The translations under genes and the position numbers were made by a program. A model generated the notes under the pieces. That model did no database searches and was not told where the DNA came from. It saw only the letters and a program-made list of their open reading frames with translations. DNA of 64,000 nt, taken from Rhodoferax sp. TS-BS-61-7. Its GTDB lineage: Bacteria; Pseudomonadota; Gammaproteobacteria; Burkholderiales; Burkholderiaceae_C. Positions 2,573 through 53,593 of the stretch are shown here, in pieces (the first letter of the stretch is position 1; each line of letters starts with the position of its first letter). The DNA lies in assembly GCF_002943465.1 (NCBI RefSeq), contig NZ_PTQY01000002.1, forward strand, positions 372,001 through 436,000, given 5' to 3'.

Positions 2573-3673
2573 ATGACAGTGCAATCCGGAAAACCAGGCT
2601 ACCTGGTGACAGAGAAGCTGGTGAAACGCTTTGACGAAGCCACCGCCGTGGACGAGGTGTCCTTGTCCATCGCGCAGGGCGAGATTTTTGCGCTGTTGGG
2701 CAGCTCGGGGTGTGGCAAGTCCACGCTTCTGCGCATGCTGGCGGGGTTTGAATCGCCCACCTCCGGCCGGATTTTGCTGGGTGGGCAGGACGTGGCCAAG
2801 TTGGCGCCGTATGACCGCCCCATCAACATGATGTTCCAGAGTTATGCGCTGTTTCCACACCTGGACATCTGGGAGAACGTGGCCTTTGGCCTCAAACGCG
2901 AAGGCCTGCCCAAAGACGAAATCAAGCAGCGTGTGGGTGAGATGTTGGACCTGGTGCAACTCGGTACCTACGCCAAGCGCAAGCCGCACCAGCTCTCGGG
3001 CGGGCAACAGCAGCGCGTTGCGCTGGCCCGCAGCCTGGCCAAACGTCCCAAGCTGTTGCTGCTGGACGAACCATTGGGCGCGCTGGACAAAAAACTGCGT
3101 GAACAAACCCAGTTTGAACTGGTCAACATTATCGAAAAAGTGGGTGTGACCTGTGTGATGGTGACGCACGACCAGGAAGAGGCCATGACCATGGCCAACC
3201 GCATTGCCGTGATGAGCAAGGGCCGTGTGCAGCAAGTGGGTTCACCCGAAGAGGTGTACGAACACCCGGCCAACCGTTTTGTGGCCGACTTCATTGGCAA
3301 CGTGAATATTTTTGAAGGCCGCCTCAGTATTGATGAACACGACCGCTGCGCCGCTGTGACCGGTATTGGCGAAATCCAGGTAGGCCACGGCGTCAGTGGC
3401 ACGCTGAACATGCCCGTGGGCATTGCCGTGCGCCCCGAGAAGATCGAAATCAGCAAGGTGCGACCCGATGTGGCGGTGAACCTGTTCACCGGCCGGGTCA
3501 AGGAGATTGCCTACTTTGGCTCCTACAACACCTACATCGTGGTGGCCACCGACGGCACCAAGGTGAAGATCACCGAGGCCAACACCTCGCGCCAGGAGCT
3601 CAGCGACATCACCTGGGAAGACGATGTGTACTTCTGGTGGGGTGATCGCTCTGCCATCGTGTTGCGCGATTGA
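2573..3673 (+). CDS. potG: Polyamine ABC transporter ATP-binding protein, PotG/PotA-like
   Basis: ATPase subunit energising polyamine import at the inner membrane. It has Walker A GSSGCGKST (residues 43-51), Q-loop in NMMFQSYALFPH, signature LSGGQQQR, Walker B LLLLDEP and H-loop VTHDQEE, followed by a C-terminal TOBE-type regulatory domain (about 250-366). The 366-residue length fits the family. The start ATG at 2573 has only a weak upstream purine stretch; an in-frame start at 2546 would place the initiation region inside the terminator tail and is less likely. It is followed after 8 bases by the permease gene. PotG is preferred to PotA because the neighbouring binding protein is PotF-like. 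Confidence 0.93.
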   Translation: MTVQSGKPGYLVTEKLVKRFDEATAVDEVSLSIAQGEIFALLGSSGCGKSTLLRMLAGFESPTSGRILLGGQDVAKLAPYDRPINMMFQSYALFPHLDIWENVAFGLKREGLPKDEIKQRVGEMLDLVQLGTYAKRKPHQLSGGQQQRVALARSLAKRPKLLLLDEPLGALDKKLREQTQFELVNIIEKVGVTCVMVTHDQEEAMTMANRIAVMSKGRVQQVGSPEEVYEHPANRFVADFIGNVNIFEGRLSIDEHDRCAAVTGIGEIQVGHGVSGTLNMPVGIAVRPEKIEISKVRPDVAVNLFTGRVKEIAYFGSYNTYIVVATDGTKVKITEANTSRQELSDITWEDDVYFWWGDRSAIVLRD

Positions 3674-35293: not shown

Positions 35294-35339
35294 AGAAGCC
35301 GCATTGTAGGGTGCGTGCAAGCTGGGGCAGCGTAAAATG

Positions 35340-35562
35340 CGCGGGTTGGTGCTCGCGGTGTGGTTCACACGCCGCAGTTCAACGGGAAGCAGGAGGGTGT
35401 TGCTGTGCAACAGCGAACCTAACCTGCGCTGCCCCCGCAACGGTAAGTGGACGAGCCCGCGAGCTCCGCTTCCATCACGGCCACTGAGCGTTTTCGAACA
35501 CGCGCTTGGGAAGGCGATGGAGGTTGCATCCACCAGCCCGGATACCGGCCAACACGGTGTAG
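35340..35562 (+). promoter_or_regulatory. Cobalamin (AdoCbl) riboswitch
   Basis: All hallmark elements are present in order: GGGAAGCAGG (about 35384), the B12 box GCTGCCCCCGCAACGGTAAG (35428-35447), GCCACTG (about 35480), TTGGGAAGGCG (about 35507) and GCCCGGATACCGGCC (35536-35550). It precedes btuB and probably shuts down the entire uptake/biosynthesis operon when B12 is plentiful. After the aptamer a hairpin GAAGCC/GGCTTC (35604-35621) overlaps a GGAGGG purine tract, so control may act on translation, though a weak terminator cannot be excluded. Confidence 0.95.
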
Positions 35563-35639
35563 GTGCGCCTGGCGCGCCTGCGTGACGCCCATGCCCTGGC
35601 GGGGAAGCCGGGGAGGGCTTCTGTTCGGATTCTTGTTCC

Positions 35640-43836: not shown

Positions 43837-44691
43837 TTGTTGATTTCGCTTGTATCCCGCTGGCGCCTTGTGCTGCTGCTCCTGGCACTGGGTGGTCTGG
43901 CCCATGCGCAGCAGCCATTGCGCATCGTCACACTCGCCCCCTCATTGACCGAGGCCGTGTGTGCGCTGGGGCGTTGTGCGCAGCTGGTGGGGACGGACCG
44001 CCACTCCACTTGGCCCGCGTCGGTGCAGGCACTGCCCAAGGTGGGCGGACTGGAAGACGCGCAGATCGAGCGCATTGTCACGCTGCGGCCCAACCTCGTA
44101 TTGCTAGGGCCGCGCAGCCGCGCGGGCGAACGCCTGCAGGCGCTGGGCGTACCGGTGCTCATGCTGGACGCGCGCACCCATGCCGATTTGAAACGCATGC
44201 TGGTCAAGTTGGGCGACACGCTGGGCGAGCCCGCCCGTGCTACCGAGTTGATCGCCCGTCTCGATGGCGAGTTGGACACGGCTGCCGGCCGCATGCCCAC
44301 CGCTTTGCGTGGGCGCACCGTGTATGTGGAGGTGGGCGCAGGATCGTCCGCAGCCAGCGAGAAAAGTTTTATTGGCGAAACCGTGGCCAAGCTGGGCCTG
44401 GTCAATGTGGTGAGCAGCGAGCTGGGCCTGTTCCCCAAGATCAACCCCGAGCTGCTGCTGCGCCGCCCGCCAGACATCATCATCGGCCCGCGTGCCACAC
44501 TGGCCAACTTGACCGATCGCCCCGGCTGGAGTGCATTGCCGGCCGTGCGCCAGCAGCAGCTGTGCCTGCTGGACACCGAACGTATGGACCTGCTGTCACG
44601 CCCCGGCCCGCGCCTGGCCGAGGCCGCACAAATGTTGGTGGAGTGTCTGAAGGCACTGCCGCCGCGTGAATCAACCCGTTCATTTTCTTGA
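43837..44691 (+). CDS. Corrinoid ABC transporter substrate-binding protein, BtuF-like (copy 2)
   Basis: 284 residues from TTG 43837, preceded by GAGG at 43824-43827. An upstream GTG (43801) inside cobO would lengthen it by 12 residues. Signal peptide (LVSRWRLVLLLLALGGLAHAQ) and mature LRIVTLAPSLTEAVCALG. Close relative of the BtuF at 40361 (SFIGET, LGL..V, FPKINPE shared), so the two flank BtuC and BtuD-CobO as paralogues. Confidence 0.9.
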   Translation: MLISLVSRWRLVLLLLALGGLAHAQQPLRIVTLAPSLTEAVCALGRCAQLVGTDRHSTWPASVQALPKVGGLEDAQIERIVTLRPNLVLLGPRSRAGERLQALGVPVLMLDARTHADLKRMLVKLGDTLGEPARATELIARLDGELDTAAGRMPTALRGRTVYVEVGAGSSAASEKSFIGETVAKLGLVNVVSSELGLFPKINPELLLRRPPDIIIGPRATLANLTDRPGWSALPAVRQQQLCLLDTERMDLLSRPGPRLAEAAQMLVECLKALPPRESTRSFS

Positions 44692-44705
44692 CCCGAAAGA
44701 CGCTT

Positions 44706-45776
44706 ATGCAAACCCGAAAAATCCCCGCCACCATCGTCACCGGCTTTCTGGGCAGCGGCAAGACCACGCTCTTGCGCCACCTGCTGGCCAACGCGCAAGG
44801 CCGTCGCATCGCCGTCATCGTCAATGAGTTTGGCGAGCTCGGCATTGACGGCGAGCTGCTGCGCGGCTGCGGCATTGGCTGCGACGAGAACGGTGAAGAA
44901 AACGGCCAGCTGTACGAACTGGCCAACGGCTGCCTGTGCTGCACCGTGCAGGAAGAGTTTGCCCCGGTGATGGAAAAGCTGGCCGCACGCCGCGACCAGA
45001 TCGACCACCTGATCATCGAAACCTCGGGCCTGGCGCTGCCCAAGCCGCTGGTGCAGGCCTTCCAGTGGCCCGCGCTGCGCAACACCTTTACCGTGGACGC
45101 CGTGGTGACCGTGGTAGACGCGCCAGCCGTGGCCGCCGGTGACTTTGCCGACGACCCCGTGGCCGTGGACGCTCAACGCCGTGCCGACGACAACCTGGAT
45201 CACGACTCGCCGTTGCACGAGCTGTTTGAAGACCAACTGGCCACGGCCGACCTGGTGGTGGTGCACAAGACCGATGGCGTGACGCCCGCGCAACTGGTGG
45301 ACGTGGAAGCCGCTATCCGCGCCGAAACCATGCCCGGCGTGAAGCTGGTGCATGCCCAACATGGCCGCATTGACATTGACGTGCTGCTGGGCCTGCAGCG
45401 CGCGGTCGAAGACCAGATCGATGCGCGCAAGACCCACCACGACGAGGAAGAAGACCATGACCACGATGCCTTTGATTCGGTGCAGGTGGCGCTGGACGTG
45501 ACCAACCGTGATGCATTGCTGGCTGCGTTGCGCGATGTGGTGGGGCGCCATGAGATTTACCGTGCCAAGGGTTTTGTGGCCTTGCCCGGAGTGGCCATGC
45601 GCCTGGTGGTGCAGGGCGTGGGCACACGGTTTGACAGCTACTTTGACCGCCCCTGGCGTCCCGATGAAGCGCGCCAATCGCGTCTGGTACTGATTGGTTC
45701 TGAACTCAATGCAGCGGTGTTGCAGGCGGAGTTGAGCGCGGCACTGTCCGCATCGTCGACACCCGTCGCCGCCTAA
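44706..45776 (+). CDS. cobW: CobW-family metal-chaperone GTPase
   Basis: 356 residues of the G3E P-loop family. GTPase motif GFLGSGKTT (13-21), the metal-binding CLCC (76-79) in ANGCLCCT, and a His/Asp/Glu-rich stretch (HHDEEEDHDHD, about 253-263). Thought to bind and deliver cobalt to CobN. Located directly before cobN, the expected place. Confidence 0.94.
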   Translation: MQTRKIPATIVTGFLGSGKTTLLRHLLANAQGRRIAVIVNEFGELGIDGELLRGCGIGCDENGEENGQLYELANGCLCCTVQEEFAPVMEKLAARRDQIDHLIIETSGLALPKPLVQAFQWPALRNTFTVDAVVTVVDAPAVAAGDFADDPVAVDAQRRADDNLDHDSPLHELFEDQLATADLVVVHKTDGVTPAQLVDVEAAIRAETMPGVKLVHAQHGRIDIDVLLGLQRAVEDQIDARKTHHDEEEDHDHDAFDSVQVALDVTNRDALLAALRDVVGRHEIYRAKGFVALPGVAMRLVVQGVGTRFDSYFDRPWRPDEARQSRLVLIGSELNAAVLQAELSAALSASSTPVAA

Positions 45777-45794: not shown

Positions 45795-48700
45795 ATGCAT
45801 TTGCTCTCCACCCGCCCCGGCGGCCACGTGGAAGACGGAGGCCAGGGCGTGGTGCGCGTGGAGCAAACGCGGGGTGACATCGTGGTGCTCAGCGCGGCCG
45901 ACACCACGCTGTCGCTTCTGGCCGATGCAGCGCAGCAGTTGCCCGAGGGCTTTCCTTCCGTGCGTTTGGCCAACCTGATGTGGTTGCGCCAGCCCGCGTC
46001 AGCCGATATGTATGTGGACGACGTGCTGCAGCATGCGCGCGTGGTGGTCATCGACCATCTGGGCGCGGCCAGCGACTGGGCCTATGTAGTGGAGCGCGTG
46101 CGCGATCTGGCCCGCGCGCGCGGCCAGTGGCTGGCGCTGTTTTCGGGCGACGCCTTTGAAGACATGCAACTGCTGCTGCGCAGCACCGCCGCGCAGGAAG
46201 ACTGCCGCCAGCTCTGGCGCTGCCTGCGCGAGGGTGGCCGCGACAATGCGCGCGGCTTTTATGAGCTCATCGGCCATTCCGCTTTTGGCCTGGGCGAGCG
46301 TCCCGCGCCGCCCGTAGTGCTGCCGCCGGCCATGGTCTACGCATCCCCGGGTTCCCCGGCGTGGCAGGTCGGCGCGCCCGTGGCGCTGCTGGTGTTCTAC
46401 CGTGCCCATGTGCAGGCCGGCAACACCGCCGTGTTTGACGCCATGCTGGCCGCGCTGCACGACCAGGGCCTTAACACCGTGGCCGTGGCGGTGGATTCGC
46501 TGAAGAATCCCACCAGTTTGGCGCTGCTGCAGTCGCTGGCCGCGCAGCACGGTGTGGGCGTGGTGCTCAACGCCACAAGTTTTGCCATCACCGCACTCGA
46601 TGGCGACGACGTAGACAGCGTAGACGGTGCGCAGATGGAGCCGCTGGCGGGCGATGTCCCGGTGCTGCAGCTCATCACCGCCGGCTGTGCGCAAGAGCAG
46701 TGGTTGGCCGACCCGCATGGCCTGGCGCCGCGCGACTTGGCCATGCAAGTGGTGCTGCCCGAGGTGGATGGCCGCATCGGCACGCGCGCTATCAGCTTCA
46801 AGGGCCTGGCCTGGCGCTGCGAGCGCACTGAGGTGGACGTCGTGCGCTACCAGCCCGAGCCTGAGCGCATGGCCTTTGTGGCCGAACTGGCGCGCCGCTG
46901 GTGCACGCTGCGCAACAAGCCGAATGCCGACAAGCGCGTAGCGCTGATTTTGGCCAATTACCCCAATGACGACTCCCGCCTGGCCAATGGCGTAGGGCTG
47001 GACACGCCGGCCTCTACCGTGGCCTTGCTGCGTGCCATGCAGGATGCGGGTTACGCCACGGGCGCTTTGCCCGAAAGTAGCGATGCGCTGATGGCTGCGT
47101 TGGTGGCCGGTGTGACCAACAACCTGGACGCCAACGATATGCGTCCTGCCAGCCAAAGCCTGGCGATGGACGACTACCTGGCAGACTTCAACCGTCTGGA
47201 TGCCGCCAACCGCGATGCGGTGAACGCGCTGTGGGGATTGCCGGAGCAGGACCCCATGGTGCGCAGTGGCCGTTTTATGGTGTCGGGCCAGCGTTATGGC
47301 AACGTGTTCGTCGGCAACCAGCCCGCGCGTGGGCGTGACCTCGATTTGGTGGCGACCTATCACGATGCCGACCTGGTGCCCACGCACAACTACCTGGCCT
47401 TTTACTTTTGGCTGCGCCGCCAGTTTGCGGTGGACGCCGTGGTGCATGTGGGCAAACACGGCAATCTGGAGTGGCTGCCCGGCAAAAGCGTGGCGCTGGG
47501 CGCCAACTGCTGGCCCGATGCCATCCTGGGCCCGTTACCGCACCTGTACCCTTTTATCGTCAACGACCCCGGCGAAGGCAGCCAGGCCAAGCGCCGCACG
47601 CAGGCTGTGATCATCGACCACCTGATGCCGGCCCTGACGCGTGCCGAGACCTACGGCCCGCTGCAAAAGCTGGAGCGGCAGATGGACGAGTACTACGAGG
47701 CCCTCTCCTTGGACCCGCGCCGCGCGCAGCGCTTGCGCGGTGACATTCTGGACCGCGTGCTGACGGAGAACCTGCACATCGACTTAGGGTTTGCCAAACC
47801 CGCCGATGACGCGGGCCGTGAGGCGCTGCTGCAACGGTTGGACGCGTACTTGTGCGAAATCAAGGAATCGCAGATCCGCGATGGGCTGCATATTCTGGGC
47901 AGTTCCCCGCAGGGTCGCCAGCAGATCGATACGCTGGTGGCGTTGGCGCGTTTTCCCGGTGGCACGGCGGCCGGACAGCGTAGCTTGCTGGTGGCGCTGG
48001 CGAAAGATTTGCAGCTGGAGGGTGTGGATGGATTTAGTGCGCTGAGTCCGGAGTGGGCGGCACCGTGGAGTGGCCCATTCCCAGCTGTACTGCAAAGTGT
48101 GAGTGCGGAAGCCTGGCGCCATGCGGGCCATACACGCGAACGGCTGGAGCTGTTGGCGCGTCGGTGGGTGATGGACCACGTGGTGGGCGACCAAGCATTC
48201 GATGCCGCGGTCTGGCCTCACACCGCCCCCGTGCTGCAGCGCATGCACGCCGTGCTGCGCCCGCGCCTGGACGCCTGCGGCCCGCAAGAAATTTTGCAGT
48301 GCCTGCGTGGCCTGTCGGGCCAGTTTGTGCCTGCTGGCCCCAGTGGTGCGCCATCGCGCGGCCGCCCCGATGTGTTGCCTACGGGCCGCAACTTCTACTC
48401 GGTGGACACACGCGCCGTGCCCACACAAACCGCCTATGCCATGGGTGCCGCGGCCGCCGAGCGCGTGATTGAGCGGCATCTGCAGGACCATGGCTGCATG
48501 CCAGGCCAAGTGGGCTTGTCGGTCTGGGGCACCAGCACCATGCGCACGGGGGGCGAGGACATTGCCCAGGCCTTTGCGCTGCTGGGCGTGCGACCCAAGT
48601 GGGCCGACGGCAGCAGCCGGGTAGTCGACATCGAGGTGTTGCCCATGAGCCTGAAAGGCCGGCCACGCGTGGATGTGACGCTGCGCGTGTCGGGCTTCTT

Positions 48701-49613
48701 CCGCGATGCCTTCCCCAATGTGATCGACCTGTTTGACACGGCGGTGCGCACCGTGGCTGCGATCAGCGAAGAAGATGAACCCGATGAGGTGAACCCAATC
48801 CGCGCCCGCGTGCGGCGCGAGGCGGCCGATGCACAGGCCAAGGGCCTGAGCGCCGAGGCGGCGGAACGCGAAGCCACCTGGCGCGTGTTTGGCCCGCGCC
48901 CCGGTGGTTATGGTGCCGGCCTGCAGGAACTCATGGCCAGCGGCCGCTGGAACGATGGTGCGGACCTGGCCCAGGCCTATCTGCGCGCCGGCGCCTTTGC
49001 CTACGGCCAAGGCGAGCACGGTGTGGCTGCGCGCGGCAGTTTTGAGCAACGCATCGCCGGGCTGGACGCGGTGCTGCACAACCAGGACAACCGCGAGCAC
49101 GATGTGCTCGATTCGGACGACTACTACCAGTTCCAGGGCGGTATGGCGGTGGCCGTGCAAGCCCTGACCGGCGAAGCGGCTGCGCTGTACCACGGCGACT
49201 TCAGCGTGCCCGGTGCACCGCGCATCCGCACGCTGGGCGAAGAAGTGGCGCGCGTGGTGCGTTCGCGCGCCGTCAACCCCAAGTGGCTGGAGGGCGTGCG
49301 CCGCCACGGCTACAAGGGCGCGTTTGAGATGGCTGCCACGGTGGATTATTTGTTTGCGTTTGACGCCACCACGGGTGTGGTGGGCGACCACCAGTACGCG
49401 CTGGTGGCCGACGCGTATCTGCACGACGACATCAACCGCGCGTTCCTGCAACAACACAACCCCGGCGCGCTGCGTAGCATTGGCGAGCGCCTGCTCGAAG
49501 CCATGCAGCGCGGTCTGTGGGAAGCGCCGGGCGACCAGCGTGAACGCATTGAAGACCATTTGCTGGCGCTGGAGCGCCGCGTGGAAGAACACGGAGAAGG
49601 ACCTTTGGTATGA
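45795..49613 (+). CDS. cobN: Cobaltochelatase large subunit CobN
   Basis: 1272 residues; inserts Co2+ into hydrogenobyrinic acid a,c-diamide together with an AAA+ subunit and a VWA subunit. Contains the CobN/BchH core with VGKHGNLEWLPGKSVAL, TGRNFYSVDTRAVPT and GGEDIAQAFALLGVRP segments. Ends by ATGA overlap with the ChlI/D-type gene. No CobS/CobT-type AAA+/VWA genes are in the window; the next gene evidently supplies these. Confidence 0.96.
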   Translation: MHLLSTRPGGHVEDGGQGVVRVEQTRGDIVVLSAADTTLSLLADAAQQLPEGFPSVRLANLMWLRQPASADMYVDDVLQHARVVVIDHLGAASDWAYVVERVRDLARARGQWLALFSGDAFEDMQLLLRSTAAQEDCRQLWRCLREGGRDNARGFYELIGHSAFGLGERPAPPVVLPPAMVYASPGSPAWQVGAPVALLVFYRAHVQAGNTAVFDAMLAALHDQGLNTVAVAVDSLKNPTSLALLQSLAAQHGVGVVLNATSFAITALDGDDVDSVDGAQMEPLAGDVPVLQLITAGCAQEQWLADPHGLAPRDLAMQVVLPEVDGRIGTRAISFKGLAWRCERTEVDVVRYQPEPERMAFVAELARRWCTLRNKPNADKRVALILANYPNDDSRLANGVGLDTPASTVALLRAMQDAGYATGALPESSDALMAALVAGVTNNLDANDMRPASQSLAMDDYLADFNRLDAANRDAVNALWGLPEQDPMVRSGRFMVSGQRYGNVFVGNQPARGRDLDLVATYHDADLVPTHNYLAFYFWLRRQFAVDAVVHVGKHGNLEWLPGKSVALGANCWPDAILGPLPHLYPFIVNDPGEGSQAKRRTQAVIIDHLMPALTRAETYGPLQKLERQMDEYYEALSLDPRRAQRLRGDILDRVLTENLHIDLGFAKPADDAGREALLQRLDAYLCEIKESQIRDGLHILGSSPQGRQQIDTLVALARFPGGTAAGQRSLLVALAKDLQLEGVDGFSALSPEWAAPWSGPFPAVLQSVSAEAWRHAGHTRERLELLARRWVMDHVVGDQAFDAAVWPHTAPVLQRMHAVLRPRLDACGPQEILQCLRGLSGQFVPAGPSGAPSRGRPDVLPTGRNFYSVDTRAVPTQTAYAMGAAAAERVIERHLQDHGCMPGQVGLSVWGTSTMRTGGEDIAQAFALLGVRPKWADGSSRVVDIEVLPMSLKGRPRVDVTLRVSGFFRDAFPNVIDLFDTAVRTVAAISEEDEPDEVNPIRARVRREAADAQAKGLSAEAAEREATWRVFGPRPGGYGAGLQELMASGRWNDGADLAQAYLRAGAFAYGQGEHGVAARGSFEQRIAGLDAVLHNQDNREHDVLDSDDYYQFQGGMAVAVQALTGEAAALYHGDFSVPGAPRIRTLGEEVARVVRSRAVNPKWLEGVRRHGYKGAFEMAATVDYLFAFDATTGVVGDHQYALVADAYLHDDINRAFLQQHNPGALRSIGERLLEAMQRGLWEAPGDQRERIEDHLLALERRVEEHGEGPLV

Positions 49614-50677
49614 GTACTCCCGCATTGAACATTTCCCTGGAGCCCGCCACGCGCGCGGCTTTTCCGTTCACCGCGCTGGTGGGCCAGCCGCAGTTGCAGC
49701 GTGCGTTGCAGCTCGCAGCCATCGACCCCGGCATTGGCGGTGTGCTGATCAGCGGCCCGCGCGGCACTGCCAAATCCACCGCGGCGCGTGCGCTGGCGGC
49801 GCTGCTGCCCGGCGCGCCCTTTGTCACGCTGCCACTGGCTGCCAGCCTGGAGCAACTGGTGGGCACGCTGAATGTGGAAGACGTGCTGCGCGATGGCCAG
49901 GTGCGCCTGGCGCCCAGTCTGGTGGCGCGTGCGCATGGCGGTGTGCTCTATGTGGACGAAGTGAACTTGCTGCCCGATGCGCTGGTGGATGCGCTGCTGG
50001 ATGTGGCGGCCAGTGGCGTGAACACGGTGGAACGCGACGGCATTTCGCAGCAGCACGCCGCGCGTTTTGTGCTGGTGGGCACCATGAACCCGGAGGAGGG
50101 CGCATTGCGCCCGCAACTGTTGGACCGCTTTGGCCTGTCGGTGGCGCTGGCCAACCCGACCGATGCTGCGCAGCGCACGGCCATCTTGCGTGCGCGGCTG
50201 GACTTTGATGAAAACCCTGCTGCGCTAGGCGAGCAACACGCTGAGGAACAACGTGTCTTGAGCGCCGCGCTGGTGGCCGCACGCACCGCATTGCCGCGCC
50301 TGAGCTGGTCTGACGACGTGCTGCACCATGCAGCCGCCTGCGCAATTGCCGCCGGTGTAGACGGCATGCGCGCCGACCTGGTGATGCTGCGTGCCGCACG
50401 CGCATTGACAGCTTTGGAAGGGCGCAGCGAAGTGACCGTGGCCGACGTGGATGCCGTGGCTGAACTCGCGCTGGCGCACCGCCGCCCCGAAGGCAGTGCG
50501 GCGCAAGCGCCAAGCAACGCGAGCGCGCCCCAGCAGCCACAACAAAACCCGCAGCGCCTGCAAGACCAGCAAGCTGCCGCTCCCTCGCCCCAGGGTGACT
50601 GGGGCGCGCTGCCGGCCCAGCCCGAAGGCACGACCAAGGTGCAAAAAATCGCCGGGTGGCCGCCAAAAAAAGCCTAG
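49610..50677 (+). CDS. ChlI/BchI-type AAA+ subunit (zero-frame product of the chelatase gene)
   Basis: 355 residues read without frameshift. AAA+ ATPase: Walker A GPRGTAKST (49-57), Walker B GVLYVDEVNLL (about 108-118), sensor and Arg-finger region GTMNPEEGALRPQLLDRFGL. The domain is followed by a Pro/Gln-rich linker (about 300-340) and ends at a TAG (50675-50677) immediately after an A7 run. It is a small-subunit-like protein; the VWA domain lies in the -1 frame directly downstream. ATGA overlap with cobN suggests cobaltochelatase rather than Mg-chelatase service. Confidence 0.9.
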   Translation: MSTPALNISLEPATRAAFPFTALVGQPQLQRALQLAAIDPGIGGVLISGPRGTAKSTAARALAALLPGAPFVTLPLAASLEQLVGTLNVEDVLRDGQVRLAPSLVARAHGGVLYVDEVNLLPDALVDALLDVAASGVNTVERDGISQQHAARFVLVGTMNPEEGALRPQLLDRFGLSVALANPTDAAQRTAILRARLDFDENPAALGEQHAEEQRVLSAALVAARTALPRLSWSDDVLHHAAACAIAAGVDGMRADLVMLRAARALTALEGRSEVTVADVDAVAELALAHRRPEGSAAQAPSNASAPQQPQQNPQRLQDQQAAAPSPQGDWGALPAQPEGTTKVQKIAGWPPKKA

Positions 50678-50726
50678 GCCACCCCAGCCGCCGCCCGCGC
50701 AACGGGCCTGGCAGCTGGCGGTGGCC
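50665..50726 (+). promoter_or_regulatory. -1 programmed ribosomal frameshift signal
   Basis: Slippery run A AAA AAA (50665-50671) followed by G, read in frame CCA-AAA-AAA-GCC-TAG. A spacer of five bases (50672-50676) precedes a strong three-part hairpin: GGCCACC (50677-50683) pairs with GGTGGCC (50720-50726), CCAGC (50684-50688) with GCTGG (50714-50718), and GCCCG (50693-50697) with CGGGC (50703-50707). A -1 shift continues AGC-CTA-GGC into the VWA reading frame. Spacer and structure are of the standard stimulatory type. Confidence 0.88.
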
Positions 50727-51345
50727 TCCACCCCAAACTCCTTCTACAAGTTCAGCTGCGCCTGGCGCACGGCAGCGCAGCAGCGCTATTGCCTGGTTGC
50801 CCACCGTGGTGGCCAAGGGCCCGGCACCGCTACAGCGCGCGCATCTGCGCCACCAGCCCGTGGCGCTGCGCGCAGGTCGCCTGCACTGCATCGTGCTCGA
50901 TACCTCGGGTTCCATGCGCCAGCGCGGCCGGCTGGCCTTGGCCAAGGGCCATGCAGCATTGATGATCGAGCAGGCTGCGCGCCAGGGCGACGATGTGGCG
51001 TTGTTGCGTTTTGGCGGGCAGGGCGTGGAGCTGCTGCTGCCACCGGGCCGCGCGCGTGCCTCTGGCAGCCTGCGCCTGCGCCCCGTGGGCGGTGGTGGTG
51101 GCACACCGCTGGCTGAAGCCCTGGCCCAGGCCGACCGCCTGTTGCAGCGCACCTTACGCATCAGTGGCCCCACCGAATGCTGGCTCTGGCTGCTGACCGA
51201 TGGCCGCACGCTAGAGCAACCACAGGCACCGCTGACGCCGCAACACCTGGTGATCGTGGACTTTGACGACCCGAAGAAGACCCTGGGCCGCTGTGCCGTC
51301 TGGGCCACGCGCTGGGGCGCGGAGCACCGGCTGGCACAGGCCTGA
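50671..51345 (+). CDS. ChlD/BchD-type VWA domain, expressed by -1 frameshifting
   Basis: 224 residues appended to the ~354-residue AAA+ portion by -1 frameshift, giving a 578-residue medium subunit. After a Pro/Arg/Ser linker, IAWLPTVVAKGPAPLQRAHLR and the VWA domain with the MIDAS DTSGSM (about residue 431 of the full product), then GGGGTPLAEAL and a DFDDP C-terminus. A free start at GTG 50656 is formally possible but lacks a ribosome site. Gives the AAA+-VWA partner of CobN. Confidence 0.88.
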   Translation, partial: SLGHPSRRPRNGPGSWRWPPPQTPSTSSAAPGARQRSSAIAWLPTVVAKGPAPLQRAHLRHQPVALRAGRLHCIVLDTSGSMRQRGRLALAKGHAALMIEQAARQGDDVALLRFGGQGVELLLPPGRARASGSLRLRPVGGGGGTPLAEALAQADRLLQRTLRISGPTECWLWLLTDGRTLEQPQAPLTPQHLVIVDFDDPKKTLGRCAVWATRWGAEHRLAQA

Positions 51346-51440: not shown

Positions 51441-51632
51441 ATGACTGAACCGACAACGCTGACCCACACCCCCTCTGCCACCCAGAACCCCGGCCTGGCC
51501 GTGTTGCGCCCGCTGCTGGCCGCCGCCGCACTGGGCCTGGTGGTGCTCTACGGCGTGGCCTTTGCCGAGAGCCCGCTGGCGCACAACGCAGCACATGACG
51601 TGCGCCACGTGACCGTCAAACCCTGCCATTGA
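51441..51632 (+). CDS. cbtB: Cobalt transporter subunit CbtB
   Basis: 63 residues: N-terminal Thr-rich stretch, one membrane helix (LLAAAALGLVVLYGVAFA), and the His motif SPLAHNAAHDVRHVT...PCH typical of CbtB. Forms a putative cobalt transporter with CbtA. Often under B12 riboswitch control; here inside the same operon. AAGGAG before ATG (51430). Confidence 0.9.
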   Translation: MTEPTTLTHTPSATQNPGLAVLRPLLAAAALGLVVLYGVAFAESPLAHNAAHDVRHVTVKPCH

Positions 51633-51660: not shown

Positions 51661-52491
51661 ATGATGTTTCAACGATTGATCTTTGCCGCTTTGGCCGTTG
51701 CGCTGCTGGTGGGCAGCGTGCAGTCGGGCGTACAGCAGTTGCAAGCGGTGCCCATCATCCTGGCTGCCGAGGTGTTTGAGAGCCAGAAGGTGGAAGCGCC
51801 TGAACCGGTGGCCGCGCCCGCCATGGCCGCAGCCCATGCACATGCCGACGCGGCTGCACACAGCCACGCCGATGCGGCCGCGGAAGAGTGGGCCCCGGCC
51901 GATGGCGCAGAGCGCGCCTTCTGGACCTGGGTGGCCAACGTGTTGCACGCCTTCAGCATGGCATTGCTGGTGTTTGCGGTGATGGGCGTGAGCCTGTACC
52001 GCGGCAGCAGCCTGCGTTCGCTGGCGCTGGCCGCCTGGGTGGCTGCAGCCGGCTGGTTGACTTTCCATTTCTGGCCCTCGCTGGGCTTGCACGCCGAAAT
52101 TCCCGGCATGGACGCCGCCCGCCTGGGCTCGCGCCAGGGCTGGTGGGTGCTGGCGGCCGGCAGTGCGGCACTGGCCTGTGCGTCGCTGGCAGTGTTGCGC
52201 AGCCATTTGCGCTGGGTGGCAGCGGCGGCCTGGTTGGCTTTGCCCTATGTCATCGGTGCGCCGCAGATCACGGCCGACCCATTGGCCGGTTTTAGCGGCG
52301 AAGCCCAAGCCACCTTGCGCCACCTAGGTAGCCAGTTCATCTGGGCCACGACCTGGGTGTCGCTGTCGTTTTGGGTAAGCATGGGCTTGGCCGGTGGGCT
52401 GGCGTTTCAGCGTTGGGTGCGCCCCGCCTTGCTGACGCTGCTCCAGCGCACAGAGGGCCCGGCCGTGGGCACGGCACAAGCGCCACAGTAA
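51661..52491 (+). CDS. cbtA: Cobalt transporter subunit CbtA
   Basis: 276-residue membrane protein with about five helices. A His/Ala loop (AAHAHADAAAHSHADAAAEEW, about residues 59-80) after the first helix probably gathers metal. LLTFHFWPSLGLHAEIPGMD-like and GAPQI are family signatures. AAGGAG before ATG; the ATGATG start leaves the exact Met open. Follows cbtB by 28 bases. Confidence 0.92.
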   Translation: MMFQRLIFAALAVALLVGSVQSGVQQLQAVPIILAAEVFESQKVEAPEPVAAPAMAAAHAHADAAAHSHADAAAEEWAPADGAERAFWTWVANVLHAFSMALLVFAVMGVSLYRGSSLRSLALAAWVAAAGWLTFHFWPSLGLHAEIPGMDAARLGSRQGWWVLAAGSAALACASLAVLRSHLRWVAAAAWLALPYVIGAPQITADPLAGFSGEAQATLRHLGSQFIWATTWVSLSFWVSMGLAGGLAFQRWVRPALLTLLQRTEGPAVGTAQAPQ

Positions 52492-52561: not shown

Positions 52562-53593
52562 ATGGAAACCATATTGATGGCCCCCCAACCCCTGCATTTC
52601 CACGCCCCCCACAAAACGCCTGCGCCGCGCCCCGATGCCGGCCAGCGCGTGTGGACGGTGGCCGAGGTGCAAGCGCTGCTGGAGCTGCCGTTCAACGACC
52701 TGATGTTCCAGGCGCAAACCGTGCACCGCCAGCATTTCGACCCCAATATGGTCGAGCTGGCGACGCTGCTGTCGGTCAAGACCGGCGGCTGCCCCGAAGA
52801 CTGCGGCTACTGCCCGCAAAGTGTGCACTTTGACACTGGCGTAGAGGCCGGCAAGCTGATGGGCGTCGACGCCGTACGCGAAGCCGCCGAGCGCGCCAAG
52901 GCCGCGGGCGCCACGCGGTTCTGCATGGGGGCTGCCTGGCGCGCGCCCAAAGACCGCGATGTGGAAGCCGTGGCCGAGCTGGTCAAAGCCGTCAAGGCCA
53001 CCGGCCTGGAGGCCTGCGCCACGCTGGGCATGCTGAACGACGGCCATGCCGAAACCCTGCGCGATGCCGGGCTGGACTACTACAACCACAACCTGGACAG
53101 CGCGCCCGATTTCTACGGCGACATCATCACCACGCGCGACTACCAGGACCGCCTGGACACCCTGGCCCGTGTGCGCAACGCCGGCGTCAGCGTCTGCTGT
53201 GGCGGCATTGTGGGCCTGGGGGAGTCGCGCCTGCAGCGCGCCGGCCTGATTGCGGAGCTGGCCAATTTGTCGCCATATCCCGAGTCCGTGCCCATCAACC
53301 ATTTGGTGAAAGTGGAAGGTACACCGCTGGCGGACCAGCCGGACCTAGACCCGCTGGAATTTGTGCGCACCATTGCGGTGGCGCGTATCACCATGCCGCT
53401 GGCGCGTGTGCGTTTGTCGGCCGGGCGCCAAAGCATGGGCGACGCGGTGCAGGCCCTGTGTTTTGTGGCCGGTGCCAACTCCATCTTTTATGGCGACAAG
53501 CTGCTCACCACCGGCAACCCCGATGTGGACGCCGACGGCGCGCTGCTGCAGCGCCTGGGCCTGCGCACCGGCAAGCCCATGCCCAAGTCCTGA
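52562..53593 (+). CDS. bioB: Biotin synthase
   Basis: 343-residue radical-SAM enzyme inserting sulfur into dethiobiotin. SAM cluster CPEDCGYC (CxxxCxxC, about residues 79-86), [2Fe-2S] ligands and the GGIVGLGES motif are present. Ordinary length. No other bio gene is nearby; it is embedded in the cobalamin operon between cbtA and cbiB. Confidence 0.95.

Follow-up and report, generated by a model that had tools for sequence, protein, structure and literature searches.

Can one gene furnish two subunits of an aerobic cobaltochelatase, and by what signal would it do so? The question is posed by a locus of Rhodoferax sp. TS-BS-61-7, whose genome of 4.19 Mb includes the 64,000-nucleotide stretch of DNA analysed here as a whole and called the window throughout; in it an open frame for an AAA+ protein ends shortly after a run of seven adenines (A7), and a VWA domain is encoded in the -1 frame that opens at the same run. 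A preliminary description of this DNA had proposed -1 programmed frameshifting, and comparison among genomes strongly supports that proposal, since the heptamer, the position of the stop and a stem that covaries and keeps a nearly fixed distance recur over 116 sites. We consider it very probable, arguing from sequence, that this is an fs-chlD gene which, by a -1 slip, would provide the AAA+ and the AAA+/VWA subunits of aerobic cobaltochelatase, with the adjacent CobN as partner.

The zero frame (49610-50677, forward strand) encodes a small-subunit-like AAA+ protein of 355 aa, with matches to Pfam AAA_5, AAA_lid_2 and Mg_chelatase, and ends at TAG 50675-50677. Its junction codons read CCA AAA AAA GCC TAG and contain the slip heptamer A_AAA_AAA at 50665-50671 (forward strand); the A7 lies where the preliminary description had put it, but the TAG does not follow it directly, as had been stated, for one GCC (Ala) codon separates the two. 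The -1 frame (50665-51345, forward strand) comprises a linker and then a VWA domain (Pfam VWA_2) carrying a DTSGS motif, which we take to be of the MIDAS type. This frame is open to TGA 51343-51345, so a -1 slip does enter the VWA frame, and the resulting AAA+-VWA product has 578 aa; the computed masses of the short and long products, 36.9 and 60.9 kDa, agree with the ~37 and ~61 kDa that had been foreseen. By sequence search the nearest solved relatives of the 355-aa protein are the ChlI/BchI structures 8osf and 1g8p. The NCBIfam models nearest to the AAA+ protein are TIGR02442 (putative cobaltochelatase, fused form), which the halves, scored as such, match at 375.5 and 83.2 against a curated cut-off of 779.45, and TIGR02030 (BchI/ChlI), at 313.1 against 466.95, both below the cut-off; the CobS model TIGR01650 gives no match to the window gene.

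Immediately upstream, cobN for the large subunit (45795-49613, forward strand) overlaps the start of the frameshifted gene by 4 bases, and is preceded by a gene for a cobW-type GTPase (44688-45776, forward strand). Downstream on the same strand lie genes for a cbtB-like (51441-51632; 50.1 bits, below the curated cut-off of 64.4) and a cbtA-like (51661-52491; over the Pfam but below the NCBIfam cut-off) cobalt transporter subunit; a CbtA match occurs in only 3 of the best 80 named related loci. Within the cobalamin gene cluster there is also a biotin synthase gene, BioB (52562-53593, forward strand), and a Cobalamin riboswitch (RF00174, 74.9 bits) is found at 35331-35567 on the forward strand, ~9 kb upstream of cobW-cobN-chlD.

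Genes of this kind are already known as fs-chlD, and the window gene belongs among them; Antonov 2020 (MBE) reportedly treats fs-chlD, or "magnesium chelatase", fs-genes. That programmed frameshifting in chlD had been described was part of the preliminary description, and the portions of the fs-chlD literature at hand (PMC3711429, PMC9227772) bear this out. In those portions, Antonov 2013 (PMC3711429) groups 23 magnesium-chelatase fs-genes in one cluster, those of Pseudomonas, Burkholderia and Delftia among them, with frameshifting in E. coli reporters of 63, 40 and 10% for 11, 9 and 7 As, and Kuznetsov 2022 (PMC9227772) proposes that fs-chlD may supply the small and medium CobNST subunits. 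Common to these genes and that of the window are an AAA+ open frame followed by a VWA open frame in the -1 frame, a conserved A_AAA_AAR at the frame transition, a downstream structure (here present and covarying, a putative stimulator), a CobN partner and the lack of a separate small-subunit gene, none having been found in the window's own genome; a difference is that the window's genus is not named in the same portions of the two texts. Within this literature, with Antonov 2020 outside the comparison, we found no mention of an SD-like element, lineage-wide covariation or a lysine-tRNA correlation, nor of stop-independent stem spacing or counter-examples to strict need. These are what the present analysis adds: a three-part anatomy with covariation, a stem spacing independent of the stop, a synonymous SD-like signature, an agreement so far between heptamer and tRNA, and the counter-examples.

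An A7 run alone is not rare (the window has 2, and 83 of 100 shuffles hold at least 2), and the case therefore rests on conservation. In a genus sample of 103 genomes, long matches (E <= 1e-70) were found in 14, and all 14 keep CCGCC-A7-GCC-stop-GCCACC, with both the zero and the -1 frame conserved. An evenly sampled set of 299 genomes of the family, 32 of them with a match at E <= 1e-84, contributed 28 new loci, two more (L176, L177) being read besides; the best 80 named loci of a contig search comprised 77 frameshifted and 3 fused genes, and 300 genomes of the order added 4 further loci. From 126 loci collected, 122 were parsed (L114 and the three fused loci being left out), and removal of 6 duplicates gave 116 distinct sites from Burkholderiales, Pseudomonas and one Steroidobacter MAG. 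The arrangement A_AAA_AAR, one sense codon, stop is present in 113 of these; the exceptions are L054 (CCCAAAA), L067 (A7, with the stop further on) and L119 (A9, with the stop two codons on). An A7 is also found in L114, outside the parsed set, and in L175-L177, all three outside the site counts. Counts over 114 sites omit L067 and L119 and cover 86 Burkholderiales and 28 Pseudomonas sites: the former have A_AAA_AAA in 84/86, with one CCCAAAA and one A_AAA_AAG (L082), and the latter A_AAA_AAG in 28/28. The A7, whose comparison among related genomes had been put forward as a check, proved conserved, together with its frame and the stop, within the genus and beyond it.

Downstream of the slip heptamer lies a hairpin, whose outer stem pairs AGGCCACC (50676-50683) with GGTGGCCT (50720-50727) and encloses inner stems at 50684-50718, all on the forward strand. 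The fold (-41.3 kcal/mol), with an outer stem of 8 bp, then 5 bp and an inner 3+5 bp, is much like the 7+5+5 bp described earlier; its z-score against dinucleotide shuffles is -4.07, one of the 200 shuffles folding as well. No Rfam model matched the frameshift site at its gathering score. The structure is not a new element of the gene, as had been suggested, for the Pseudomonas hairpin of chlD is printed in PMC5009743, where, in the part available, its sequence is said not to be strongly conserved. The P. protegens mg-chelatase hairpin given there occupies the same stem position in the same gene as that of the window; the Pseudomonas stems are longer (mean 13.1 bp, against a mean of 8.7 bp), with a short loop, and accompany A_AAA_AAG and no strong SD-like element, whereas the window has an interrupted stem, A_AAA_AAA and an SD-like element.

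When the best uninterrupted stem just after the stop (the anchored stem) was scored at the 116 sites and at 3480 positions drawn at random from the same genes, the mean was 9.4 against 5.65, with scores of >=6 in 110/116 against 43% and of >=7 in 85/116 against 19%. These stems, which comprise 69 distinct arm pairs, start at offset 1-4 from the first base of the stop, which puts them 4-7 nt downstream of the heptamer at sites with the usual one codon in between. Six sites score <6 (L048, L061, L067, L096, L119, L137), and the stem of L067 lies further on. In a MAFFT alignment of 86 sites, tested against 500 shuffles that ignore relatedness, 77.7% of stem cells are paired (67.2% when shuffled, 32-46% when the stem is slid), double-change cells number 98 (38.3 when shuffled) and the covariation score is 0.279 (0.113 when shuffled), the last two values being reached by 0/500 shuffles; further pair types (21 against 16.9) were reached by 2/500, and pairs changed on both sides (7 against 5.4), reached by 37/500, do not go beyond chance. 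Some of the signal survives a slide of -1 (covariation falls from 0.279 to 0.194, and double-change cells from 98 to 86), but the share of paired cells drops steeply, from 78% to 42%. Since fold z-scores are weak in some of the 7 sites folded (L005, -1.09; L085, -1.56), the argument is carried by covariation and anchoring. In L067 and L176, which resemble each other and may go back to a single event, the stop of the zero frame has moved to +24 nt from the heptamer, yet a 10-bp stem starts 6 nt after the heptamer, and this retained spacing indicates that the stem keeps to the slip site and not to the stop. Among the exceptional sites, L054 (2733, in gene orientation) has its CCCAAAA run followed, at the usual spacing, by a stem of 17 bp if GU pairs are counted, and L119 (Steroidobacter, about 3200) has nine As, a stop two codons beyond the heptamer and no anchored stem that we could find; here the long A-run may replace the stem.

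A third element, absent from the earlier sequence-only reading of the gene, precedes the heptamer. In the window it is CGGGTGG (50653-50659, forward strand), 5 nt before the heptamer, and its pairing with the chosen anti-SD string amounts to -7.0 kcal/mol; codons -8 and -7 counted from the stop are GCC and GGG, a variant of the GGA at -8 of many relatives. The element of L036, a relative of the window, reaches only -3.4. When 7-mers of the 86 Burkholderiales sites are paired with the 3' end of 16S rRNA, those whose last base lies 7-10 nt upstream of the heptamer pair most strongly, and at 6-10 nt the pairing exceeds a synonymous-codon null by z of about -10 to -14, in sites that are related rather than independent; position 2 of this null was spoiled by an unpaired-energy value, and energies were capped at 0 in later scoring. 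A site of <= -5 kcal/mol is present in 59/86 (69%), against 20% elsewhere in the genes. Of the 35 Burkholderiales sites with Gly at codon -8, 31 use GGA and 0 use GGC, and elsewhere in the genes GGA accounts for 102/2301 Gly codons (4%). With the sites collapsed to 36 lineages, GGA is used in 15 of the 18 that have Gly at codon -8, and an element of <= -5 is retained in 24/36. The 28 Pseudomonas sites have no strong element (4/28, or 14%, at -5 kcal/mol or better); pairing there is mildly enriched at 7 nt (z -4.2, the mean energy being just -0.84) and depleted at 11-13 nt (z about +3). In the raw data the SD seemed weaker where the stem was longer (Spearman 0.46, or 0.43 with the other scoring), but such a trade-off was rejected when phylogenetic contrasts gave r -0.04 (p 0.72).

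In E. coli dnaX, an SD-like element stands about 10 nt upstream of the slip site. An element upstream of the heptamer, as in dnaX, is likewise found here, in the window in a variant form. According to the parts of PMC3711429 and PMC5009743 consulted, dnaX also shares with chlD an AAA+ protein in a long and a short version, A_AAA_AAR, the upstream SD-like element and a downstream stem, and differs in that its shift leads to the short product, whereas that of chlD leads to the long one. On this model, most ribosomes would pass A_AAA_AAA in the window gene, add Ala and halt at TAG, releasing the 355-aa AAA+ small subunit, and a fraction would slip back one base on A7 and go on to make the 578-aa AAA+-VWA medium subunit. 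The slip would be aided by the hairpin, whose first pairs would meet the leading edge of the ribosome, and by pairing of the upstream SD-like sequence with 16S rRNA. We infer both the slippage in Rhodoferax sp. TS-BS-61-7 and its efficiency from sequence comparison, and likewise that both products may enter one AAA+ ring, of a composition set by the efficiency of the slip.

The same long protein could arise by ordinary translation if RNA polymerase added an A on A7. Runs of A do slip in transcription, and one locus, L119, combines A9 with the lack of an anchored stem; the runs named for transcriptional slippage in the available parts of PMC3711429 and PMC5009743 are longer. The Pseudomonas heptamer is AAAAAAG (28/28) and that of L054 is CCCAAAA, with its 17-bp stem, which argues against transcriptional slippage as a general mechanism, and an SD-like element, like a covarying stem whose spacing is nearly fixed, fits ribosomes; we regard this explanation as improbable. 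Comparably improbable is a pair of overlapping, translationally coupled genes, in which the VWA frame would have a start of its own at GTG 50656. Such a codon (GTG, TTG or ATG), in the -1 frame and nine bases upstream of the heptamer, occurs in 11/114 sites, the window (GTG) included, whose sequence by itself would allow internal initiation, but 78/114 have no ATG, GTG or TTG in that frame within 60 nt on either side, so that internal initiation seems unlikely as a general mechanism; moreover, L069 and L076 have a -1-frame stop immediately before the heptamer, and an internal start would leave the heptamer itself unexplained. A sequencing error or a decaying gene, suggested by the homopolymer at the frame break, has next to no probability, given the same run, frame and stop in 14/14 genus matches, the same arrangement in 113/116 sites and the conservation of both frames.

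That the window has cobN and no separate small chelatase subunit had been pointed out at the outset, and a search of the whole genome extends this, finding one CobN and no separate BchI/ChlI- or CobS-type gene. The own-genome matches to PF01078 are the window gene, a 524-aa open frame over the full model, presumably YifB/ComM-like, and one 25-position fragment; in a protein search the next match listed after the window gene has E 1e-12 and 31% identity, and the CobS model has no match at E <= 0.01. Among the frameshifted loci of the best 80 named, 76/77 have CobN in the same locus, the exception (L114) being a contig of 3.6 kb, and the end of the CobN match lies <=276 nt from the AAA match in 75/76 and 1777 nt from it in one. 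In the 32 frameshifted genomes of the family, with 6 candidates scored per genome, there is no second match at E <= 1e-40. One genome, G251, has a BchI-like gene as well as a frameshifted chlD, the latter lying close to the end of its contig. The CobS model, applied to nine frameshifted genomes, matches in four, all below its cut-off of 558.55 bits (G698, Cupriavidus, 527.5; G697, 131.6; G693, 39.3; G692, 22.4), and G698 may carry a genuine CobS in addition to its frameshifted gene.

The three fused genes (L129, L130 and L138, from two Oceanospirillaceae records and one unplaced MAG) have one unbroken AAA+-VWA frame, and no second ChlI-like gene was found in their genomes at E <= 1e-15. CobN, outside the 13-kb loci in all three, gives a full-length match in two; in G689, the genome of L129, it is present in two pieces, which lie on opposite strands some 14 kb from each other. 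No CobS exceeds the cut-off in these genomes, one of which has a match of 21.8 bits only. Since they have CobN matches and no small-subunit gene that we could find, frameshifting, or two products, may not be strictly required. The earlier argument that a missing small subunit is expected if the gene makes both is weakened by these three genomes. In the AAA+ tree, rooted at the midpoint with no BchI outgroup, long branches leave the place of the fused rows unsure. Two chlD groups of the window's own genus (L004, L034, L035 and L036; L005-L010 and L037-L040) are not neighbours in this tree, which hints at horizontal exchange.

In regard to the heptamer itself, the available part of PMC5009743 argues, in the case of dnaX, that the slip at A_AAA_AAG would be impaired by a further lysine tRNA if this paired tightly with AAG; tRNALys(CUU) should hold AAG firmly. 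The window's own genome has adjacent genes for tRNALys(UUU) and tRNALys(CUU) (L203). An exact tRNALys pattern detects CUU in 17 of 19 Burkholderiales genomes tried, a set that excludes L082, the sole A_AAA_AAG site of that order, and all 17 have an A_AAA_AAA site; the other two gave UUU only (G700, also A_AAA_AAA) and nothing (G701). ARAGORN confirmed tRNALys(CUU) in 15/17, reporting no tRNA at the G366 and G699 loci, and found none at L214 of the Steroidobacter MAG. The pattern is silent for both anticodons in 11/11 Pseudomonas genomes and thus uninformative there; in one Pseudomonas genome of 6.05 Mb, tiles covering 2.4 Mb (about 40%) contained 31 tRNAs, among them one tRNALys (UUU) and no CUU, and Pseudomonas probably has tRNALys(UUU) only. 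Its A_AAA_AAG is accompanied by a long near-perfect hairpin and no strong SD-like booster. These data, from two large lineages and a partial Pseudomonas tRNA inventory, fit a tentative idea, which we consider rather less likely than not, that the slip signal is tuned to the lysine tRNAs of the cell, lineages with CUU using A_AAA_AAA, often with an SD-like booster, and Pseudomonas A_AAA_AAG.

Overall, these findings indicate that the chlD signal of many Burkholderiales has the full three-part architecture of dnaX, and the fused-gene genomes call into question the view that cobaltochelatase needs a separate small subunit. The ratio of the subunits becomes open to probing by three independent synonymous or compensatory changes, and the pattern of heptamers and lysine tRNAs suggests a rule that can be tested directly within one gene family. 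If that rule is true, one orthologous gene would represent a natural experiment in which tRNA supply has shaped frameshift sites, and tRNA supply would determine the proportions in which AAA+ and AAA+/VWA subunits enter the ring of the chelatase.
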